The translations under genes and the position numbers were made by a program. The notes below the pieces were generated by a model. It was not told the origin of the DNA. It was given only the letters and a program-made list of their open reading frames with translations, and searched no databases. Positions 8,761-15,701 of a stretch of DNA of 61,007 nucleotides are shown piece after piece. The DNA is from an uncultured Methanobrevibacter sp. (GTDB lineage Archaea; Methanobacteriota; Methanobacteria; Methanobacteriales; Methanobacteriaceae). The stretch's first letter is position 1; every line of letters starts with the position of its first letter. The DNA lies in contig CACWUH010000005.1 in the NCBI GenBank assembly GCA_902764015.1, positions 1 to 61,007 of the forward strand. The letters are read 5' to 3'.

Positions 8761-11019
8761 CTAGTCAACATCCTTAAGTGCTTCAACCATGTCCAAATCC
8801 TTGATCTTGTCTGAAAACATAAGATTTACAACGATGGATATTGCAAATGTAATCAAAGCGGACAGCAGTATATTTCCCCAGGTCAACTTTGGAATATAAT
8901 AAAGAGAATCTCCCGCAGCATCCATCATCAGTGTCATGAAGTAAAAGCCAAGCGGAATTCCCAAAACAAATCCGATAGCCGTGAAGATAATGTTTTGCGT
9001 CAAAAGAAGCTTTCTCAACACATTCGTCTTGAAACCCAAAACCTTCAATGTTGCGATTTCCCGCTCCATTTCTATAAATGACAGGATTTCCAGATTATAC
9101 AATACCAGAATGGCCAGTGCAACTGCAACAACCGTCACGACATAAACCATCATCATCACCGATGTCGTTATCTGATCCCAGCTCTTTTCAAGCTTGTCGA
9201 TGCTTGAAACGGATTTGATGGAATCGTATTTCTCACCGAATTTTTCGGGAGTTATGATATGTGTCGGCGTGAAGTTCAAGCCCTGATCCTCTAGAGTGTC
9301 CGGAGACATTATCAGACCCTGCGAAACGGGTTCCGTATGGATTTGGCCTATTTTGGAGGTTACCCACTCATCGCTTCCGACAATGTGCCACCTGACCTTA
9401 TCGCCAACCGTCAGATTGAACCTTTCGGCAAGTTTAGTCGATATTGAAACGTCCCCCTCCTTAATTTCAAGGGGATTCCTGTTGCTGTCAGTGTAGGATA
9501 TCAAATCCGTATTGTTTGAAACCAGAAGCGTTACCGTGTCCTCCATGTCATGCGCCTTGATTTCAATGGACTGCTGCATGATGAAACTGCCGTCGGTATA
9601 GTTCAGGATATAATAGATTTCCATAGGATTCGCATTGCTTGAAAGCAGGAGTTTAGACTCAAAGTGTGATATGTCATCATATTCCCATGTCTTCAGCTCG
9701 CCCATGCAGTCATTCATTCCGAATGCCGCAATCAAAAGCGCCACACAGCCCATCACCCCCACTATTGCCATCAATGCCCTGAACTTGTTTCTTCTTGCAT
9801 CACGCCAGTTCCATCGAAGATTGAAACTCAAGCGACTCCAAAACCTTGACTTTTCAAGGAAGCTGTTCGAAGATGCATTAGGGGCCTTTGGCCTTAATGT
9901 GTTTGCAGGATTTTCCTTAGAAATCATCCTGCATGAGAGGTATGTGACAAAAACTGAAGATGCAACCATCAATACCGCAATGTAGATGAAACTCATGTCA
10001 AAACCGGGATACCATCTTGGCATGCTATATGTTGCCGCCATTGTGGGATAAAACATCCTTGGAATCACCACAGGCCCCGTAACCAATCCCAGAATCGCAC
10101 CGGCCAAAACCGGCCAGAAACCATATGAAATATAGTGCAGAATTATGGTCCTGTCCCTATATCCGACAGCCTTCAGAACACCGATTTGGGTTCGCTGATG
10201 CGTCACTATCCTTGTCATTGCCGTCAAAAGGGTCAAAAAAGTAATCAGAATAAACACTATTGGAAAGACATCACCCATCATCTTGTGCTGCGCCATCTCA
10301 TCGGAAAATTTGGAAACACTGATTTGGTCCTGCATTTTGGTGAATGACAAATAATCGGCAGAATCATCCAATTTCTTTTCGAAATCGCTATCCGAGCAAT
10401 TGTACTTGACAAGCAAAGTGTCGTAATCCAAATCTTCGGGATATGCCTTATGCGAAAGGTAAGCAAACCCAATCTGTGAAAAATCGGGAGTCAGTGAATT
10501 GGGGGAGGATTCGTAGATGTATTCGGGAGAATAACCCAGACCCTTGATTTCCTTTTTGATGGTTTTGTTGTCAAACTCAAAGGAAATCATGTCTCCAACC
10601 TTCAAATTACGCTCCTTTGCAAAACGGCAATCGAGCCATACCCCTGACTCATCAGATGCATTGAAGTCTTCACCTTCCGTCGAATAGAATTTCGATATCT
10701 CACCCTTTTCGACGAAATGCAGCTTAATGTCAGGCTTGTTTTCAAAATCCGCCTGGGATTGCACCACCCTTTGCCTGTCTGTTGCAAGGGAAAATCCGCT
10801 GATTTTATCGACAGATGCATCATCAAAAGTAGTGTTGTAAATCCAACCGTCGGCCATATTGGTTTGGCCATAATATGCATCCGAAGTCTGCACAAGCCCG
10901 TAATACTCGCCATATATCCCACAGTAAGCGAAAATACCTAAAAATGCCATGAGAAATATTGCAATAAACTGTGTCTTATTGATCTTTATATCCCTCAGCA
11001 TCTTTTTAGATAATGACAT
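8761..11019 (-). CDS. ABC transporter permease, FtsX/MacB-like (second permease)
   Basis: 752 residues with two copies of the FtsX-type architecture: an N-terminal membrane helix (near residues 16-36), a large extracytoplasmic domain, a three-helix bundle (near 250-370), a linker, then a repeat with helix, ectodomain (about 440-600) and three terminal helices. It is clearly paralogous to the permease at 13431-15701: both begin with a KKMLRDI...KTQF motif and an IFLMAFLG helix, and both share QLGVLKA/GFK-type motifs around the bundle. No ATPase gene adjoins it; it presumably uses the one at 15705-16409. Substrates of this family range from lipids and lipoproteins to peptides and cannot be decided here. 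It is separated from its paralogue by the tRNA array. Confidence 0.85.
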   Translation of the reverse strand: MSLSKKMLRDIKINKTQFIAIFLMAFLGIFAYCGIYGEYYGLVQTSDAYYGQTNMADGWIYNTTFDDASVDKISGFSLATDRQRVVQSQADFENKPDIKLHFVEKGEISKFYSTEGEDFNASDESGVWLDCRFAKERNLKVGDMISFEFDNKTIKKEIKGLGYSPEYIYESSPNSLTPDFSQIGFAYLSHKAYPEDLDYDTLLVKYNCSDSDFEKKLDDSADYLSFTKMQDQISVSKFSDEMAQHKMMGDVFPIVFILITFLTLLTAMTRIVTHQRTQIGVLKAVGYRDRTIILHYISYGFWPVLAGAILGLVTGPVVIPRMFYPTMAATYSMPRWYPGFDMSFIYIAVLMVASSVFVTYLSCRMISKENPANTLRPKAPNASSNSFLEKSRFWSRLSFNLRWNWRDARRNKFRALMAIVGVMGCVALLIAAFGMNDCMGELKTWEYDDISHFESKLLLSSNANPMEIYYILNYTDGSFIMQQSIEIKAHDMEDTVTLLVSNNTDLISYTDSNRNPLEIKEGDVSISTKLAERFNLTVGDKVRWHIVGSDEWVTSKIGQIHTEPVSQGLIMSPDTLEDQGLNFTPTHIITPEKFGEKYDSIKSVSSIDKLEKSWDQITTSVMMMVYVVTVVAVALAILVLYNLEILSFIEMEREIATLKVLGFKTNVLRKLLLTQNIIFTAIGFVLGIPLGFYFMTLMMDAAGDSLYYIPKLTWGNILLSALITFAISIVVNLMFSDKIKDLDMVEALKDVD

Positions 11020-11055: not shown

Positions 11056-11135
11056 CGGTGACGGAATGACTGGACCCTTGACATCTCATGATGCGACCAG
11101 TTCTTGGGTGAGGCGCTGCCGATGTATACGGCGCC
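11056..11135 (-). pseudogene. Degenerate tRNA-Ser remnant
   Basis: The 3' half (GCATCATGAGATGTC, acceptor strand CGTCACC, G at position 73) matches the tRNA-Ser(GGA) at 11736-11820. The anticodon arm is shortened and not foldable, the T arm has lost its complementarity (AAGGG against CATTC) and the acceptor has two mismatches. It occupies the last slot of the second tRNA module, where a Ser gene is expected. Confidence 0.6.
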
Positions 11136-11143
11136 GCTGAAAA

Positions 11144-11227
11144 CGCCATGTGGAGGATTCGAACCTCCGACATCAAAGATGCTCTCGCTTTCGAGGCGAG
11201 CGCCTTATACCTCTCAGCCAACATGGC
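11144..11227 (-). tRNA. tRNA-Ser (anticodon CGA)
   Basis: An 84-nt class II tRNA. Acceptor GCCATGT pairs fully with ACATGGC, discriminator is G, the anticodon stem CTCGC/GCGAG encloses the loop CTCGAAA, there is a long variable arm, and the T arm GGAGG-TTCGAAT-CCTCC is intact. It is the C34 partner of the Ser(TGA) gene at 11829-11912, with which it shares nearly all other positions. Confidence 0.93.
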
Positions 11228-11233
11228 AATTAG

Positions 11234-11315
11234 TAGATGTGATGGGATTCGAACCCACGCAGCACTGAGCGGAAGGTCCTGAGCCTCCCTCCTTTGACCA
11301 CTCGGACACACATCT
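11234..11315 (-). tRNA. tRNA-Leu (anticodon CAG)
   Basis: An 82-nt class II tRNA. Acceptor AGATGTG/CACATCT is perfect, A is the discriminator, and the stem GGAGG/CCTTC holds the loop CTCAGGA. It decodes CUG. Its counterpart in the first module (11919-11997) has the same acceptor but a damaged anticodon arm. Confidence 0.92.
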
Positions 11316-11324
11316 AAATGAAAA

Positions 11325-11399
11325 TAGGTGCGATAGTATTTGAACAACGAAGACAAGCCACAGACAATGAGTCTGTGTTCGACCATCGAAGCACTCACT
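11325..11399 (-). pseudogene. Degenerate tRNA-Leu-like gene with a CAT anticodon loop
   Basis: The 3' strand CGCACCTA matches neighbouring Leu genes and the stem ACAGA/TCTGT encloses the loop CTCATTG, read as CAT. The 5' acceptor no longer pairs beyond two positions and the T arm is broken (GTTGT against CTAT). It sits in the slot equivalent to Leu(TAG) at 12006-12088. A functional tRNA is unlikely. Confidence 0.6.
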
Positions 11400-11411
11400 A
11401 TTCGAACCAAA

Positions 11412-11483
11412 AGCCATAAGACAGAATCGAACCATCATTTCCTGCTTACGAGGCAGGCGTACTAACCGTTGTACTATTATGGC
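11412..11483 (-). tRNA. tRNA-Thr (anticodon CGT)
   Basis: A 72-nt class I tRNA. Acceptor GCCATAA/TTATGGC, U discriminator (usual for archaeal Thr), stem CCTGC/GCAGG and loop CTCGTAA. It is the C34 partner of Thr(TGT) at 12097-12168. The T stem uses two G-U pairs. Confidence 0.92.
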
Positions 11484-11486
11484 AAG

Positions 11487-11572
11487 TAGGGGTGGTGGGA
11501 TTTGAACCCACGAAGCACTAAGCAACCGGTCTTGAGCCGGCATCCTTCGACCAGGCTCGGAATCACACCCCT
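11487..11572 (-). tRNA. tRNA-Leu (anticodon CAA)
   Basis: An 86-nt class II tRNA. Acceptor AGGGGTG/CACCCCT is perfect, discriminator A, stem GCCGG/CCGGT with loop CTCAAGA. This is the most canonical Leu(CAA) gene of the array and the C34 partner of Leu(TAA) at 12172-12257. Confidence 0.94.
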
Positions 11573-11596
11573 ATGACAAACATTAACGTGCCAACA

Positions 11597-11660
11597 GGTA
11601 CAGCGGGACTTGAACCCGCATATGAACAATCCGTAAACCCTCTGCTACGGATTTTTTACC
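11597..11660 (-). pseudogene. D-armless tRNA-like remnant
   Basis: The T arm GCGGG-TTCAAGT-CCCGC and a 3' acceptor strand ending TGTACC are intact. Upstream, a 7-bp stem (ATCCGTA/TACGGAT) with a 10-nt loop replaces the D and anticodon arms, and only GGTA is left of the 5' acceptor. It lies between the two tRNA modules and is probably a deletion product. A structured non-tRNA RNA is possible. Confidence 0.45.
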
Positions 11661-11686
11661 ATATTTGCACATTTCATTTTACTAAT
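11659..11686. repeat. Leader repeat of the second tRNA module
   Basis: About 23 of 28 positions match 12880-12907, both containing ACATTTCATTTT. Each copy lies just upstream (minus-strand sense) of a tRNA group, so it looks like a duplicated promoter or leader segment. Confidence 0.55.
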
Positions 11687-11735
11687 TCATATTTATAACT
11701 ACTCAAATATATAGTTATCCATTATTTAAATTAAG

Positions 11736-11820
11736 CGGTGACGGAGGGATTTGAACCCTCGACATCGGATGATGCAACCCGCTCTCCAGGCGGGCCCCTT
11801 ACCTGCTTGGATACGACACC
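11736..11820 (-). tRNA. tRNA-Ser (anticodon GGA)
   Basis: An 85-nt class II tRNA. Discriminator G, stem CCCGC/GCGGG with loop CTGGAGA, T arm GAGGG-TTCAAAT-CCCTC. The acceptor GGTGTCG/CGTCACC contains one T-T mismatch at 5:68. Confidence 0.9.
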
Positions 11821-11828
11821 GTTAAAAG

Positions 11829-11912
11829 CGCCGTGTGGAGGATTCGAACCTCCGGCATCAACGATGCTCTCGCTCTCAAGGCGAGCGCCTTAGACCTCTC
11901 AGCCAACACGGC
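11829..11912 (-). tRNA. tRNA-Ser (anticodon TGA)
   Basis: An 84-nt class II tRNA. Acceptor GCCGTGT/ACACGGC is perfect, discriminator G, stem CTCGC/GCGAG with loop CTTGAGA, T arm GGAGG/CCTCC. It has the same scaffold as Ser(CGA) at 11144-11227. Confidence 0.94.
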
Positions 11913-11918
11913 ACAAAG

Positions 11919-11997
11919 TAGATGTGATGGGATTCGAACCCATGAAGCACTAAGCAAGGGCCTACACCCCCTCCTTTGGCCACTCGGACACACATCT
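11919..11997 (-). tRNA. tRNA-Leu-like gene with a damaged or aberrant anticodon arm
   Basis: 79 nt. The acceptor AGATGTG/CACATCT, A73, the D region and the T arm match Leu(CAG) at 11234-11315, but the anticodon region is 3 nt shorter. The best fold (AGGGG/CCCTT) gives the loop GTGTAGG, which reads as GTA, a tyrosine anticodon on a leucine body. Alternative pairing gives UAG without U33. It is either a pseudogene or a misfolding tRNA. Confidence 0.5.
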
Positions 11998-12005
11998 AAA
12001 TGAAA

Positions 12006-12088
12006 TAGGTACGGTGGGATTCGAACCCACGAAGGACTAAACCAACAGATTCTAAGTCTGCCCTCTTTGCCAACTGGAGTACGCACCT
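12006..12088 (-). tRNA. tRNA-Leu (anticodon TAG)
   Basis: An 83-nt class II tRNA. Acceptor AGGTGCG/CGTACCT contains one G-U pair, discriminator A, stem GCAGA/TCTGT with loop CTTAGAA, T arm GTGGG-TTCGAAT-CCCAC. It decodes CUA and other CUN codons. Confidence 0.92.
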
Positions 12089-12096
12089 ATGCAAAA

Positions 12097-12168
12097 AGCC
12101 ATAGAACGGAATCGAACCATCATCTTCTGCTTACAAGGCAGATATACTAGCCATTGTACTACTATGGC
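12097..12168 (-). tRNA. tRNA-Thr (anticodon TGT)
   Basis: A 72-nt class I tRNA. Acceptor GCCATAG/CTATGGC, U discriminator, stem TCTGC/GCAGA with loop CTTGTAA. It occupies the second slot of the first module. Confidence 0.93.
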
Positions 12169-12171
12169 AAA

Positions 12172-12257
12172 TAGGGGAGGCGGGATTTGAACCCACGAGG
12201 CACTGAGCCCCCGGTCTTAAGCCGGGATCCTTCGACCAGACTCGGAATCACACCCCT
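12172..12257 (-). tRNA. tRNA-Leu (anticodon TAA)
   Basis: An 86-nt class II tRNA. Discriminator A, stem CCCGG/CCGGG with loop CTTAAGA. The acceptor AGGGGTG/CTCCCCT has one T-T mismatch at 6:67. It shares its scaffold with Leu(CAA) at 11487-11572 and opens the first module. Confidence 0.9.
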
Positions 12258-12275
12258 ATAATGATATTTACTCAA

Positions 12276-12358
12276 TAGGTGCGGTGGGATTCGAACCCAC
12301 GAAGGACTGACCTACGGATTCTTAGTCCGCTCCCGTGACCAGGCTTGGGTACGCACCT
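12276..12358 (-). tRNA. tRNA-Leu (anticodon AAG)
   Basis: An 83-nt class II tRNA. Acceptor AGGTGCG/CGCACCT is perfect, discriminator A, stem GCGGA/TCCGT, loop CTAAGAA, T arm GTGGG/CCCAC. All helices are intact, yet the anticodon reads AAG. A34 is very rare in archaea, which normally use GAG for CUU/CUC. The body closely resembles Leu(TAG) at 12006-12088, differing at position 34 and in the stems. Confidence 0.85.
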
Positions 12359-12370
12359 ATACACAATTTA

Positions 12371-12417
12371 AAGCCATAATGATTGATTCAATCAAACAAC
12401 ACCATACCACTACGGCG
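12371..12417 (-). pseudogene. tRNA-Thr remnant with internal deletion
   Basis: Its outer ends resemble the Thr genes (GCCGTAGTGGTA at the 5' side, TATGGCT at the 3' side), but the anticodon arm and T arm are gone, leaving about 47 nt. It lies between two Leu genes exactly where a Thr gene sits in the complete modules. Confidence 0.55.
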
Positions 12418-12419
12418 AA

Positions 12420-12502
12420 TGGGTGCGGCAGGATTCGAACCTACGAAGCACTAAGCGCCGGTTTTGAACCGACTCCCTTTGACCGCTCGGGAACACGCAC
12501 CC
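12420..12502 (-). tRNA. tRNA-Leu (anticodon CAA), second copy
   Basis: An 83-nt class II tRNA. Acceptor GGGTGCG/CGCACCC is perfect, discriminator A, stem GTCGG/CCGGC with loop TTCAAAA, T arm GTAGG-TTCGAAT-CCTGC. It duplicates the decoding capacity of the gene at 11487-11572 on a different body. Confidence 0.88.
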
Positions 12503-12516
12503 CTAATATCCTAAAA

Positions 12517-12628
12517 TAGGTGCGGCAGGATTCGAACCTGCGTAGGAACTTATCCGCCAGGCCCCAATCGGTTTTTGTTTAACCCCAACCTTTGGCCCGG
12601 CCCTCTTTAGCCACTCGAGAACGCACCT
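12517..12628 (-). tRNA. Intron-containing tRNA-Leu-like gene (CAA by position)
   Basis: 112 nt. Acceptor AGGTGCG/CGCACCT, A73, D stem CTC/GAG, anticodon stem GCCGG/CTGGC, variable arm GGA-TAAGT-TCC and T arm GCAGG-TTCGAAT-CCTGC are intact. About 29 extra nt (roughly 12562-12590) follow position 37. They fold as an archaeal bulge-helix-bulge: central helix CCAA:TTGG, 3-nt bulges AGG and GGC, inner helix TTGG/CCGA. After splicing the loop would be GCCAAAC, giving anticodon CAA but C instead of the near-universal U at 33. The family is Leu by A73 and the long variable arm. Function is uncertain. Confidence 0.65.
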
Positions 12629-12879
12629 ATGAGAAATAATCATCGATAACTAACGCAAATGGAAAAATATTAACTCAAACTAAAGATTGAATCTGCATGA
12701 ACTGAAAACAATTTGTTGAGCCAAAGATCAAATCAATGCACTTTGGAAATTGCAACCAGCAGATTTTCCATTATCGTACGGAGTCTAAAAACAGCATTCA
12801 TGACAACAAACTGGTCAGCAAGCTGCCATGTGCTAAAGACAAACAAAGAGAAGTCAGACCTAATGTAGAAGATCCTTTA

Positions 12880-12907
12880 ACCATTTTTACACATTTCATT
12901 TTCCTAA
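12880..12907. repeat. Leader repeat upstream of the tRNA array
   Basis: It matches 11659-11686 at about 23 of 28 positions, including a shared ACATTTCATTTT. This supports segmental duplication of promoter plus tRNA genes. Confidence 0.55.
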
Positions 12908-12978
12908 CCATTTTTATCACTACTTTTTAATTTAATATATTGTAAAAAATTGCTTTACGCAAACTTTCATGTTATCTA

Positions 12979-13083
12979 AATACTAATCTATTTCAGATAA
13001 TATATAAATCACGTAAAGCTTTTGCTTTACATAACCTTTCTTTTTACTTAAACATTAATCTCTTTCAGATACTATTTAAATCA
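12979..13083. repeat. Tandem promoter-like repeats (12979-13011, 13051-13083)
   Basis: Two 33-nt units, 28 of 33 identical, share TAATC-T-TTTCAGATA and end AAATCA. On the minus strand each offers an A/T core (TTTATATA or TTTAAATA) resembling an archaeal TATA box. They may give two start points for the tRNA array, or control the small gene at 13151-13372 from its downstream side. Confidence 0.45.
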
Positions 13084-13150
13084 ATGAAAGGAAAAGCTTT
13101 AATCAAGACTGAATATTTCTAAAAAAAAAGAATATGAGTTTTAGATGAAA

Positions 13151-13430: not shown

Positions 13431-15701
13431 CTATTCAACACCTTTGAGAGACTCGACCATGTCCAACTTCTTAATCTTACGTGAAAACATGAGATTTACA
13501 AGTATCGACAGCGAGAATGTTATCACAGCCGTTATTGCAAGATTTGTGAGGGATATCGAAGGCAGAACATAAAACGAATCGCCTGAAGATTCCCACATTA
13601 TCTTCAATATGTAATATCCGACAGGAATTCCCAATATGAAACCGATTGTCGTAAACCACAGGTTTTGTGTCAGAAGTAGCTTTCTCAATGCCCCAGTCTT
13701 GAATCCCAGAACCTTAAGAGTGGCTATCTCCCTTTCGATTTCCGTAAATGACAGAAGCCCCAGATTATATAACACCACAACCGCCAGAAGTGAAGCAAAG
13801 AATATCAGGATGTATATCAAAAGCCACATGGCCTCCGTCAGCTCGTCCCAGCTTGAAGTCATGTCCTTCATGGAGTTGGCGGTTTTAATGGCAGTGTAGT
13901 TCTTGTCCACATGCTCTGTTGTCACAATGCTTGTCGGAGTGTAGTTCAAGTCCAAATACTCTAGCCTATCGGCAGACATTATGAAACCCTGTGAGGTCGG
14001 ATCTGCATGGATTTTATCAATCTTTGTCTTTATCCATTTGTCCGAACCCATGATGTGCCACTTTACGGTATCTCCAACATCAACCCCCAGCATGTCAGCC
14101 ATCTTTCGTGAAACCGAAACCTCATCATCCTTGATATCAATCCGGTTCCAGTCATAGTCTGTCGGAGTTACCAAATCGGTGTGGTTTAAAACCAGAAGCG
14201 AACCCGATTTTTTGGCCGTGCCCGATTCTATTTCGATTGCGGATTCCATTATCTTGTCGCCGTTGACTTCATCGGCCACGTCATCAATCTCTGATGTTGA
14301 GGCCTCATCATCTATGACCAGCTTGGAGTCGTAGTGGTTAATCTGGTTGAATTCCCATTCCTTCAAATCGTTCATTCCGTCATACATTCCAAATGCGGAT
14401 ACCAGAAGCGCAGTGCATCCAATCACCCCAATGATTGTCATCAGCGCCCGGAACTTGTTTCTTTTGGCATCCCTATAGTTCCACCGGGCATTGAATGACA
14501 GGTGCCTGAAAAATCCCAGCTTTTCAACAAAACCCGATGATGACACCTTAGGAACCTTCGGCCTTATGGTGTCTGCAGGATTCTCATTGAAGATGCTTTT
14601 GACCGCATAGTATGACACCAGAACAGACATCAGAACCATTGCAATCGCCACATAGACAAAGTCCAAACTCCATGCAGGCTCCCATGACGGCAGGATATAT
14701 GTGGAGCTCATTGTCGGATAGAACAGCTTAGGCAATGTCATCGGCCCTATTATCAAGCCCAAAATTGACCCTATCAGAACAAGCCAGAACCCATATGAAA
14801 TATAATGAAGCATTATTGACCTGTCAGTGAATCCGCATGCCTTCAGGATGCCTATTTGGGTTCGCTGATGGGCAATGATTCTTGTCATTGTCGTCAAAAG
14901 GATGAGCATTGCAATCAGTATGAATACAACAGGAAAAATTCCGGCCATCATCTGGTGCTGATCCATCTCCTCTGAAAACTGGCTTACGCTTGTGTGCTCA
15001 GACCTCTCAACAAATGAGTTATAATAGCCGTCCATGTGATAGGACAAAAGGTCATTGTAGTTTTCAGGCGTTCCATCAAACTTGACGTTAAGCACATTGT
15101 ATGGAACCGTATCTTCAGGAAATGCCTTGTAGGACATGTATGCAAAGCCCAATTTGGAGAAATCCGGTACCACCGATGACTTTGAAGCATGATAGACATA
15201 TTCCGGCGAATAGCCTATGCCACGGATTTGCTTTTCGAGAGTGTAGTTTTCAAACTTGAACGTTATCCGGTCTCCGACCTTAAGACCCTTGGCATCGGCA
15301 AAGCTCTTGTCCAGCCATACCCCCTCCTTATCATTGATGTCAAGGGGCTCGCCTTCCACCAGATAGAATTTGGATATAGTATTGTTTTCAACAAAGTGCA
15401 GCGTGATTTCGGGATCGTTTGAAAAGTCCGCCACCGAATCCACAACCAGCTGCCTTTCCATCTGGGTGGTTGCACCCAAAATGTCAACCTGATACAAAAA
15501 CAGGTCATTTATGTAATTAGAATAGATCCATCCGTCAGCCAGGTTTGTGTCTTCGTAATATCTGTCGCTGTTGACTTCAAGGCCGACCGATTCACCGCCG
15601 ACGCCCGCAAAAACAAAGACTCCAAGAAATGCCATAAGAAAAATAGATAGGAACTGGGTCTTATGCTTTCGGATGTCCCTTAACATCTTCTTTTTAAGCA
15701 T
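13431..15701 (-). CDS. ABC transporter permease, FtsX/MacB-like (first permease)
   Basis: 756 residues with duplicated FtsX modules: N-terminal helix (about 16-36), ectodomain, three-helix bundle (about 255-375), second helix near 425-445, second ectodomain (about 450-620) and a terminal three-helix bundle. The motif RTQIGILKACGF and its repeat EIATLKVLGFKTGALRK are the cytoplasmic coupling segments expected to contact the ATPase. It starts 3 bp after the ATPase stop codon, so the two are translated from one mRNA. It is paralogous along its whole length to the permease at 8761-11019. The family moves lipids, lipoproteins or peptides, or transmits mechanical force; the substrate here is unknown. 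Confidence 0.88.
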   Translation of the reverse strand: MLKKKMLRDIRKHKTQFLSIFLMAFLGVFVFAGVGGESVGLEVNSDRYYEDTNLADGWIYSNYINDLFLYQVDILGATTQMERQLVVDSVADFSNDPEITLHFVENNTISKFYLVEGEPLDINDKEGVWLDKSFADAKGLKVGDRITFKFENYTLEKQIRGIGYSPEYVYHASKSSVVPDFSKLGFAYMSYKAFPEDTVPYNVLNVKFDGTPENYNDLLSYHMDGYYNSFVERSEHTSVSQFSEEMDQHQMMAGIFPVVFILIAMLILLTTMTRIIAHQRTQIGILKACGFTDRSIMLHYISYGFWLVLIGSILGLIIGPMTLPKLFYPTMSSTYILPSWEPAWSLDFVYVAIAMVLMSVLVSYYAVKSIFNENPADTIRPKVPKVSSSGFVEKLGFFRHLSFNARWNYRDAKRNKFRALMTIIGVIGCTALLVSAFGMYDGMNDLKEWEFNQINHYDSKLVIDDEASTSEIDDVADEVNGDKIMESAIEIESGTAKKSGSLLVLNHTDLVTPTDYDWNRIDIKDDEVSVSRKMADMLGVDVGDTVKWHIMGSDKWIKTKIDKIHADPTSQGFIMSADRLEYLDLNYTPTSIVTTEHVDKNYTAIKTANSMKDMTSSWDELTEAMWLLIYILIFFASLLAVVVLYNLGLLSFTEIEREIATLKVLGFKTGALRKLLLTQNLWFTTIGFILGIPVGYYILKIMWESSGDSFYVLPSISLTNLAITAVITFSLSILVNLMFSRKIKKLDMVESLKGVE

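Follow-up and report, generated by a model that had tools for sequence, protein, structure and literature searches.

Large tRNA arrays are found in bacteria, viruses and archaea, and their purpose is debated. The nearest known case to the one described here is the trn operon of Anabaena sp. PCC 7120, which is silent until translation is inhibited and is repressed by TrcR together with rtcB (PMC10272220). In Salmonella, the rsr-yrlBA-rtcBA operon, which has no tRNA array, is controlled by RtcR, a sigma-54 enhancer-binding activator with a CARF domain (PMC7790460). For archaea, the sections of Morgado and Vicente (2019, PMC6333295) drawn on here describe dense tRNA clusters with pseudogenes in Methanobrevibacter and haloarchaea, and a TROVE (Ro-like) gene that accompanies many clusters, mostly haloarchaeal; for the methanogen clusters these sections report no duplication history, common promoter or RNA-repair link. 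The subject of the present study is a dense tRNA array on the minus strand of a 61,007-nucleotide stretch of DNA (the window), which is contig C5 of an archaeal genome bin (G000; 1.98 Mb, 156 contigs, 84% complete) belonging, as judged by its relatives, to the genus Methanobrevibacter, and of the rumen type. The array is flanked by two paralogous permease genes and is the orthologue of the second cluster listed for Methanobrevibacter sp. RUG344 in that survey (ONJC01000014.1:27774-28888). We propose, from sequence comparison, that it is probably a reserve tRNA operon in an archaeal translation-repair regulon, and not a mere curiosity of tRNA gene birth.

Like the Anabaena trn operon, this is a large spare array beside housekeeping tRNAs, with a regulatory site common to rtcB and other translation genes, recognised here by sequence pattern only. 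It differs in that the host is an archaeon with several arrays, and in the association with second copies of elongation factors 2 and 1A (EF-2 and EF-1A), an L40e-like protein, RlaP, an RNA ligase and a kinase-like gene. Instead of the ribbon-helix-helix repressor TrcR, for which no search was made, there is an operator made of a palindrome and a TATA box, and a candidate regulator with a winged helix-turn-helix (wHTH) and an FHA domain. As in the Salmonella RtcR operon, RNA-repair genes would be under a single damage-linked control, the link to damage being one that we infer; unlike that operon, a tRNA array is present and no sigma-54 CARF activator was seen among the proteins examined. Neither the RtcR activator nor the RtcA cyclase is encoded in the rtcB operon of G000. 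We found no report of such a regulon in methanogens in the literature searched (subscription papers and preprints lay outside its coverage).

The operator and the genes that follow it

The operator has the pattern TAAAG-N6-CTTTA-N4-A-N-TTATATA, a palindrome fused to a TATA box, and lies upstream of the window array, outside the positions covered by an earlier note on this DNA. It precedes all 17 array blocks, from seven Methanobrevibacter genomes, with 0-1 mismatch and at 300-620 bp before the first called tRNA, and at each block none of 200 shuffles matched it. For at least 10 of the 17 blocks the promoter played no part in the discovery, which relied on tRNA or array sequence only; some of the others came to light through the leader. 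The genome also has separate housekeeping tRNAs, dispersed in G000 as in the relative G004, and those of G000 are without operator: at 13 dispersed loci none was found within 650 bp, the best match having 4 mismatches. With up to 2 mismatches allowed, G000 has 32 sites versus 2 for the reversed pattern, and the genus has 54 exact sites, in 18 of 67 genomes, versus 0. Two single degenerate tRNA-like genes (C33, C123) are also located downstream of an operator. Searches of the operator and the leader against Rfam families gave nothing above gathering score, only weak chance-level matches; the candidate Termite-leu was rejected (19 bits against a cut-off of 51, not recurring in ten other loci).

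Among the genes behind the operator are several of RNA repair and translation. In G000, an exact operator is followed by rtcB (PF01139, 223 bits) and then by the SIS, wHTH-FHA and kinase-HSP70 genes, after which a metallophosphatase gene has its own operator with 2 mismatches. Behind other operators of this genome are an RlaP nucleotidyltransferase gene with a DRB0094-type RNA ligase gene next in line, another RlaP accompanied by phosphatase-like genes, and a peptidase-like gene with an AAA_33 kinase gene after it (the best NCBIfam match of the kinase is PNK-3'Pase). Operators also stand before the second copies of EF-2 (aEF-2) and EF-1A (two mismatches and one, respectively, against none for RtcB) and before genes for an L40e-like protein, a VWA protein and some unknown or membrane-type proteins. 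Among the relatives, the operator precedes rtcB (G003), EF-2 (G046, G051), arrays and low-molecular-weight (LMW) phosphatase genes (G052, G059). EF-2 is present twice in G000 and in the 99%-complete G003 and once in the array-less G004, G007 and G008, and EF-1A is doubled in G003 and G051. A single 16 kb stretch of contig 5 of G003 holds the genes for kinase-HSP70, wHTH-FHA, SIS, RtcB and an LMW phosphatase, a tRNA array, further LMW phosphatases and rlaP. Judged by the shared promoter pattern, the co-regulation of the arrays with RNA-repair genes appears well supported.

Two further arrays of G000 carry the same operator. One, at L031 1934-3499 (C18:2935-4499), comprises Phe, Tyr, Pro, Lys, Asn, Glu, Ile, Ala, Val, Asp, His, Cys, Trp, Ser and Gly, and the other, at L031 18656-19001, Gln and Met; together with the window array they cover most amino acids. 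A protein of about 690 residues with the motif LFRVDC..DLWNLYL is likewise operator-linked (L269 7814-9892; L279 2515-4584; L251; L254; L259), and its L269 copy gave no match in Pfam, NCBIfam or PADLOC. RtcB, the kinase and the ligase were also considered as members of known defence systems, an idea that was set aside, PADLOC having returned only generic kinase domains and one weak WD40-type match.

The candidate regulator and the trigger

A single DNA-binding candidate emerged from the regulon, a protein of 264 residues from the rtcB operon that has a winged helix at its N-terminal end and an FHA domain at its C-terminal end (FHA in 18 of 18 homologues; HTH_20 in 16 of 18, best E 1.8e-4). Within the genus its gene occurs in 25 of 67 genomes, and eleven genomes from other genera of the family have it too; in G029, G038 and G054 it is preceded by its own operator. 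Exact operators are present in 18 of the 25 genomes with the gene and in 0 of the 42 without it (Fisher p = 5e-11, which is overstated because the genomes are related). This association makes the wHTH-FHA protein a candidate regulator that would bind the operator. FHA domains bind phosphothreonine and, since a kinase is encoded alongside, control by phosphorylation may reasonably be supposed. The kinase in question, a protein kinase fused to an HSP70 domain (L271 886-4383), is encoded beside the FHA regulator in the rtcB operon and is a possible damage sensor.

A narrower version of our explanation is that the regulon answers a specific tRNA-cutting weapon, i.e. a viral or rival anticodon nuclease, whereby divergent array bodies would resist cutting and RtcB, kinase and ligase would mend the host tRNAs. 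The repair of cut tRNAs is the classical task of kinase, ligase and RtcB, the array Thr bodies are at most 66% like the canonical Thr genes, and the kinase domain of the kinase-HSP70 protein resembles those of known defence systems. However, generic kinase similarity is no evidence of defence, no nuclease was found as a partner (none was tested for), and the spare EF-2, EF-1A and L40e point to a wider injury to translation. We regard this version as possible, if doubtful, and prefer a general response to RNA or translation damage.

Duplication, wobble bases and decay in the window array

The features of the array region, from upstream to downstream, are as follows.

13431-15701, minus strand: upstream paralogous permease gene, a conserved landmark of the site (open reading frame, relatives)
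13073-13101, minus strand: outer, weaker copy of the palindrome and TATA operator, 2 mismatches (pattern search)
13001-13029, minus strand: operator TAAAGCAAAAGCTTTACGTGATTTATATA, palindrome joined directly to the TATA box, exact match to the regulon pattern (pattern search)
12784-12934, minus strand: conserved array leader, a 37-codon frame without coding signature, likely RNA hairpins, T tract at the end (76-87% to the leaders of five relatives)
12516-12629, minus strand: Leu-type body with an insertion of about 27 bases, which ARAGORN calls an intron-containing Pro(TGG), unlikely to be functional (ARAGORN, alignment)
12420-12502, minus strand: weak Leu(CAA)-like tRNA gene, 32 bits (tRNA scans)
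12375-12419, minus strand: Thr tRNA remnant (read from the sequence)
12276-12358, minus strand: Leu(AAG) tRNA gene, 54 bits (tRNA scans)
12172-12257, minus strand: module 1 position 1, Leu(TAA) (tRNA scan, alignment)
12097-12168, minus strand: module 1 position 2, Thr(TGT) (tRNA scans)
12006-12089, minus strand: module 1 position 3, Leu(TAG) (tRNA scans)
11918-11997, minus strand: module 1 position 4, decayed Leu(TAG), called Tyr GTA by ARAGORN, under the Rfam cut-off (tRNA scans, comparison)
11829-11912, minus strand: module 1 position 5, Ser(TGA) (tRNA scans)
11736-11820, minus strand: module 1 position 6, Ser(GGA) (tRNA scans)
11654-11703, minus strand: duplicated 5' part of the leader, preceding module 2 (alignment)
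11595-11655, minus strand: Leu tRNA remnant (alignment)
11487-11572, minus strand: module 2 position 1, Leu(CAA) (whole-genome scan, alignment)
11412-11483, minus strand: module 2 position 2, Thr(CGT) (tRNA scans)
11325-11407, minus strand: module 2 position 3, dead Leu with CAT at the anticodon position (alignment)
11233-11315, minus strand: module 2 position 4, Leu(CAG) (tRNA scans)
11144-11227, minus strand: module 2 position 5, Ser(CGA) (tRNA scans)
11056-11138, minus strand: module 2 position 6, dead Ser (alignment)
8761-11019, minus strand: flanking permease gene, a conserved landmark of the site, outside the regulon (open reading frame, relatives)

ARAGORN calls ten genes in the array and Rfam gives ten tRNA matches, beside which there are several dead copies; with its 10 ARAGORN genes in 11143-12502 the array is an archaeal tRNA gene cluster in the sense of Morgado and Vicente (2019; at least 10 tRNA genes and at least 2 per kb). 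A whole-genome tRNA scan added Leu(CAA) at 11570-11487. The genes named in the earlier note were all recovered on the minus strand at the positions it gave, with the anticodon pairs that it had assigned to the modules, and the Leu, Thr remnant and Leu that it placed further upstream are the weak Leu(CAA) (32 bits), the Thr remnant and Leu(AAG), joined by the Leu body with the insertion of about 27 bases. Where the note counted at least eight class II Leu-type genes, there are nine or ten Leu-type bodies, of which about six are tRNA-like. In several species (window 12629-12516; L135 2975-3091; L138 near 6100), the tRNA body that comes first after the leader is abnormal, with an acceptor of Leu type but an anticodon arm that is inserted or altered.

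The two six-gene modules, at 12264-11720 and 11580-11040, are collinear over all six positions, with 434 of 532 ungapped columns identical (81.6%), spacers included; a chance origin of the match is excluded because of this collinearity, and the proposed segmental duplication is borne out. Genes at the same position are 83-92% identical where both are intact and 65-67% where one copy is badly decayed (two positions), and the mildly decayed position-4 gene of module 1 is still 87% like its module 2 partner; most other gene pairs in the array are 45-75% identical. The 5' part of the leader is present twice (11703-11654 versus 12924-12876, 84% of 50 bases), and therefore the duplicated segment extended into the leader. 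The anticodons of modules 1 and 2 are UAA/CAA, UGU/CGU, UAG/(CAU, dead), (UAG, dead)/CAG, UGA/CGA and GGA/dead, so that C34 stands in module 2 where module 1 has U34, dead genes included. The gene of module 1 previously described as Leu-like does have a Leu body and is now read as a decayed Leu(TAG), being 90% identical to the Leu(TAG) of RUG13973, relative to which T33 has become G and one loop base is missing; the Tyr(GTA) call of ARAGORN, which would imply a Tyr tRNA with a class II arm, was rejected. The degenerate Leu of module 2 is indeed dead, and we add that it too has C34 (anticodon CAT), which extends C34 to all module 2 positions, living or dead.

The living anticodons do not repeat (Leu UAA, CAA, UAG and CAG; Thr UGU and CGU; Ser UGA, CGA and GGA). 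The suggestion that redundant members are decaying holds in the form of a reciprocal loss, the second Leu(UAG) being dead in module 1 and the partner of the other one dead in module 2. Between living module partners, stem pairs have changed on both sides in a compensatory way four times; of the 56 pairs scored in each module, all are formed in module 2 and 55 in module 1. Therefore, both copies have been selected as tRNAs since the duplication.

The genes are not dispersed in related genomes, as they might have been had the duplication been misread; three relatives, namely RUG344 (L082, G035), RUG13973 (L092, G051) and G060 (L078), have the array at this very site, and most other relatives have both permease genes with no array between them. 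At L098 600-760, a tRNA T-arm scar directly upstream of the permease gene marks the loss of an array at this site. The expectation that module partners would be closest to each other held only in part, since they are no closer to each other than to the orthologues of the sister species RUG13973 (position 1, 90 versus 90-91%; Thr, 83 versus 88%; Ser, 92 versus 95%), and therefore the duplication occurred near the split from RUG13973 or earlier. Wobble-base specialisation, the second half of the original idea, is upheld for the Thr change from UGU to CGU and the Ser change from UGA to CGA; the nearest relatives have UGU and UGA, U34 being the older state for both. For Leu it is ambiguous at position 4 and also at position 1, for which RUG13973 has one orthologue that already reads CAA. 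To call this a rare view of isoacceptor birth was an overstatement. A module pair of its own, with Leu genes of UAA/CAA type and UAG/CAG, is present in G003, and RUG13973 has a Leu-Ser duplication (UAG/UAA); therefore, duplication with anticodon change recurs in the genus.

The array could also be the decaying relic of a mobile element or virus, its anticodon differences being neutral drift in bodies charged regardless of anticodon. The many dead copies, the loss of arrays with scars at the same site in relatives (L098) and the fast reshuffling of array order and anticodons between species are in keeping with such an origin, but it does not accommodate the compensatory stem changes and intact living copies or the promoter retained ahead of every array. 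In addition, no integrase was seen between the permeases, and two array-leader patterns had no match in IMG/VR viral contigs. We consider a relic very unlikely.

LeuRS and SerRS do not read the anticodon, and ThrRS is independent of base 34. The U34/C34 change is seen in the Leu, Ser and Thr classes, which fits charging that ignores the anticodon or base 34. Many tRNA-CNN genes have been lost in Methanobacteriales (Wu et al. 2018, PMC6000648), which explains why the C34 genes stand out here, where they arise or persist inside the array. This loss, together with the lack of Leu(CAA) and Ser(CGA) in the complete relative G004 and the non-repeating living anticodons of the two modules, could be taken to mean that the array serves codon supply, with C34 isoacceptors regained for faster NNG decoding in ordinary growth. 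However, the arrays of relatives hold mostly U34 forms that repeat canonical anticodons, most of the genus manages without arrays, and the promoter common to RNA-repair genes would be left unexplained. A role in codon supply is, in our judgement, unlikely. No canonical Leu UAG or GAG gene was found in G000, and because this genome is an incomplete bin (84%), the absence of these or other genes carries no meaning. The canonical Leu(TAA) of G000 (L034 523-600, C104) is broken in the T arm and 3' end, either as a pseudogene or through an assembly fault. A solitary dispersed Leu(CAG) (L133 60-142, with similar matches in about 25 other genomes) has a body 80-87% like that of the array Leu(CAG); it may have left an array long ago, or the array type may derive from it.

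A conserved leader of about 150 bases follows the operator of the Leu/Thr/Ser arrays, and a different leader is present at the other arrays. In six species, leaders of the window-array type contain a frame of 37 codons rich in Leu, Ser and Thr, with Thr codons only where the array holds a Thr tRNA. This amino-acid content suggested that the leader encodes an attenuator peptide, on which ribosomes would stall when those tRNAs are scarce, thereby switching the array on. The differences among leader frames are, however, spread about equally over the three codon positions (102/77/96 and 112/106/101), with no excess at the third, and therefore there is no sign of protein-level selection on the frame. 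The conserved complementary segments before the T tract fit an RNA element better; a 9-bp hairpin at alignment columns 103-134 is always paired, with one-sided changes only and in few sequences. Attenuation, which seems highly improbable, was dropped, and the pattern suggests instead that the leader would form RNA hairpins.

The array as a probable reserve operon

Several observations weigh against a reserve operon under the wHTH-FHA protein, besides the relatedness that inflates the Fisher value. The winged-helix call rests on weak scores (best 1.8e-4), the regulator was chosen after regulon membership had been seen, so that the same co-occurrence is expected of any member, and eighteen genomes carry it with no large array. 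Chance probably accounts for some of the sites with 2 mismatches, a number that the EF-2 site of G000 also has (EF-2 of G046 and G051 follows exact sites), and several sites precede membrane or adhesin-like genes without a link to RNA repair. Several genes of the array are dead or low-scoring. Lastly, G015 and G016 have 60 and 54 tRNA matches and neither operator nor wHTH-FHA gene, and therefore arrays can exist under other control.

With these points taken into account, we propose a series of linked steps. The wHTH-FHA protein, encoded in the rtcB operon beside the kinase-HSP70 fusion, would bind the operator, and upon RNA or translation damage the repair enzymes, elongation factors and spare tRNAs would be made together. 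Duplication with U34/C34 partners would have widened the reserve set, a widening that could be tolerated since the charging of Leu and Ser tRNAs takes no account of the anticodon and that of Thr tRNAs none of base 34, and copies with a repeated anticodon would have decayed afterwards. Induction by damage, control by the wHTH-FHA protein and use of the tRNAs as a reserve are the parts that we infer. We lean slightly towards the full form of this proposal, in which Methanobrevibacter has a second, inducible kit for translation that consists of the L40e-like protein, EF-1A, EF-2 and tRNA arrays serving many amino acids. In this form, a wHTH-FHA regulator that senses phosphorylation, together with its kinase, would have the kit made along with RtcB, RlaP and RNA ligase, and the U34/C34 module duplication would enlarge the decoding range of the kit.

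The promoter motif that links archaeal arrays to RNA repair and spare elongation factors provides a testable answer to the debate on array purpose, namely a response to damage, and arrays tied to RNA repair suggest convergence with cyanobacteria. Within the genus, moreover, the duplication of tRNA genes with a change of anticodon and reciprocal loss can be studied in more than one instance. Rumen Methanobrevibacter are major methane producers in livestock, which gives practical weight to the question of how they withstand damage to translation.

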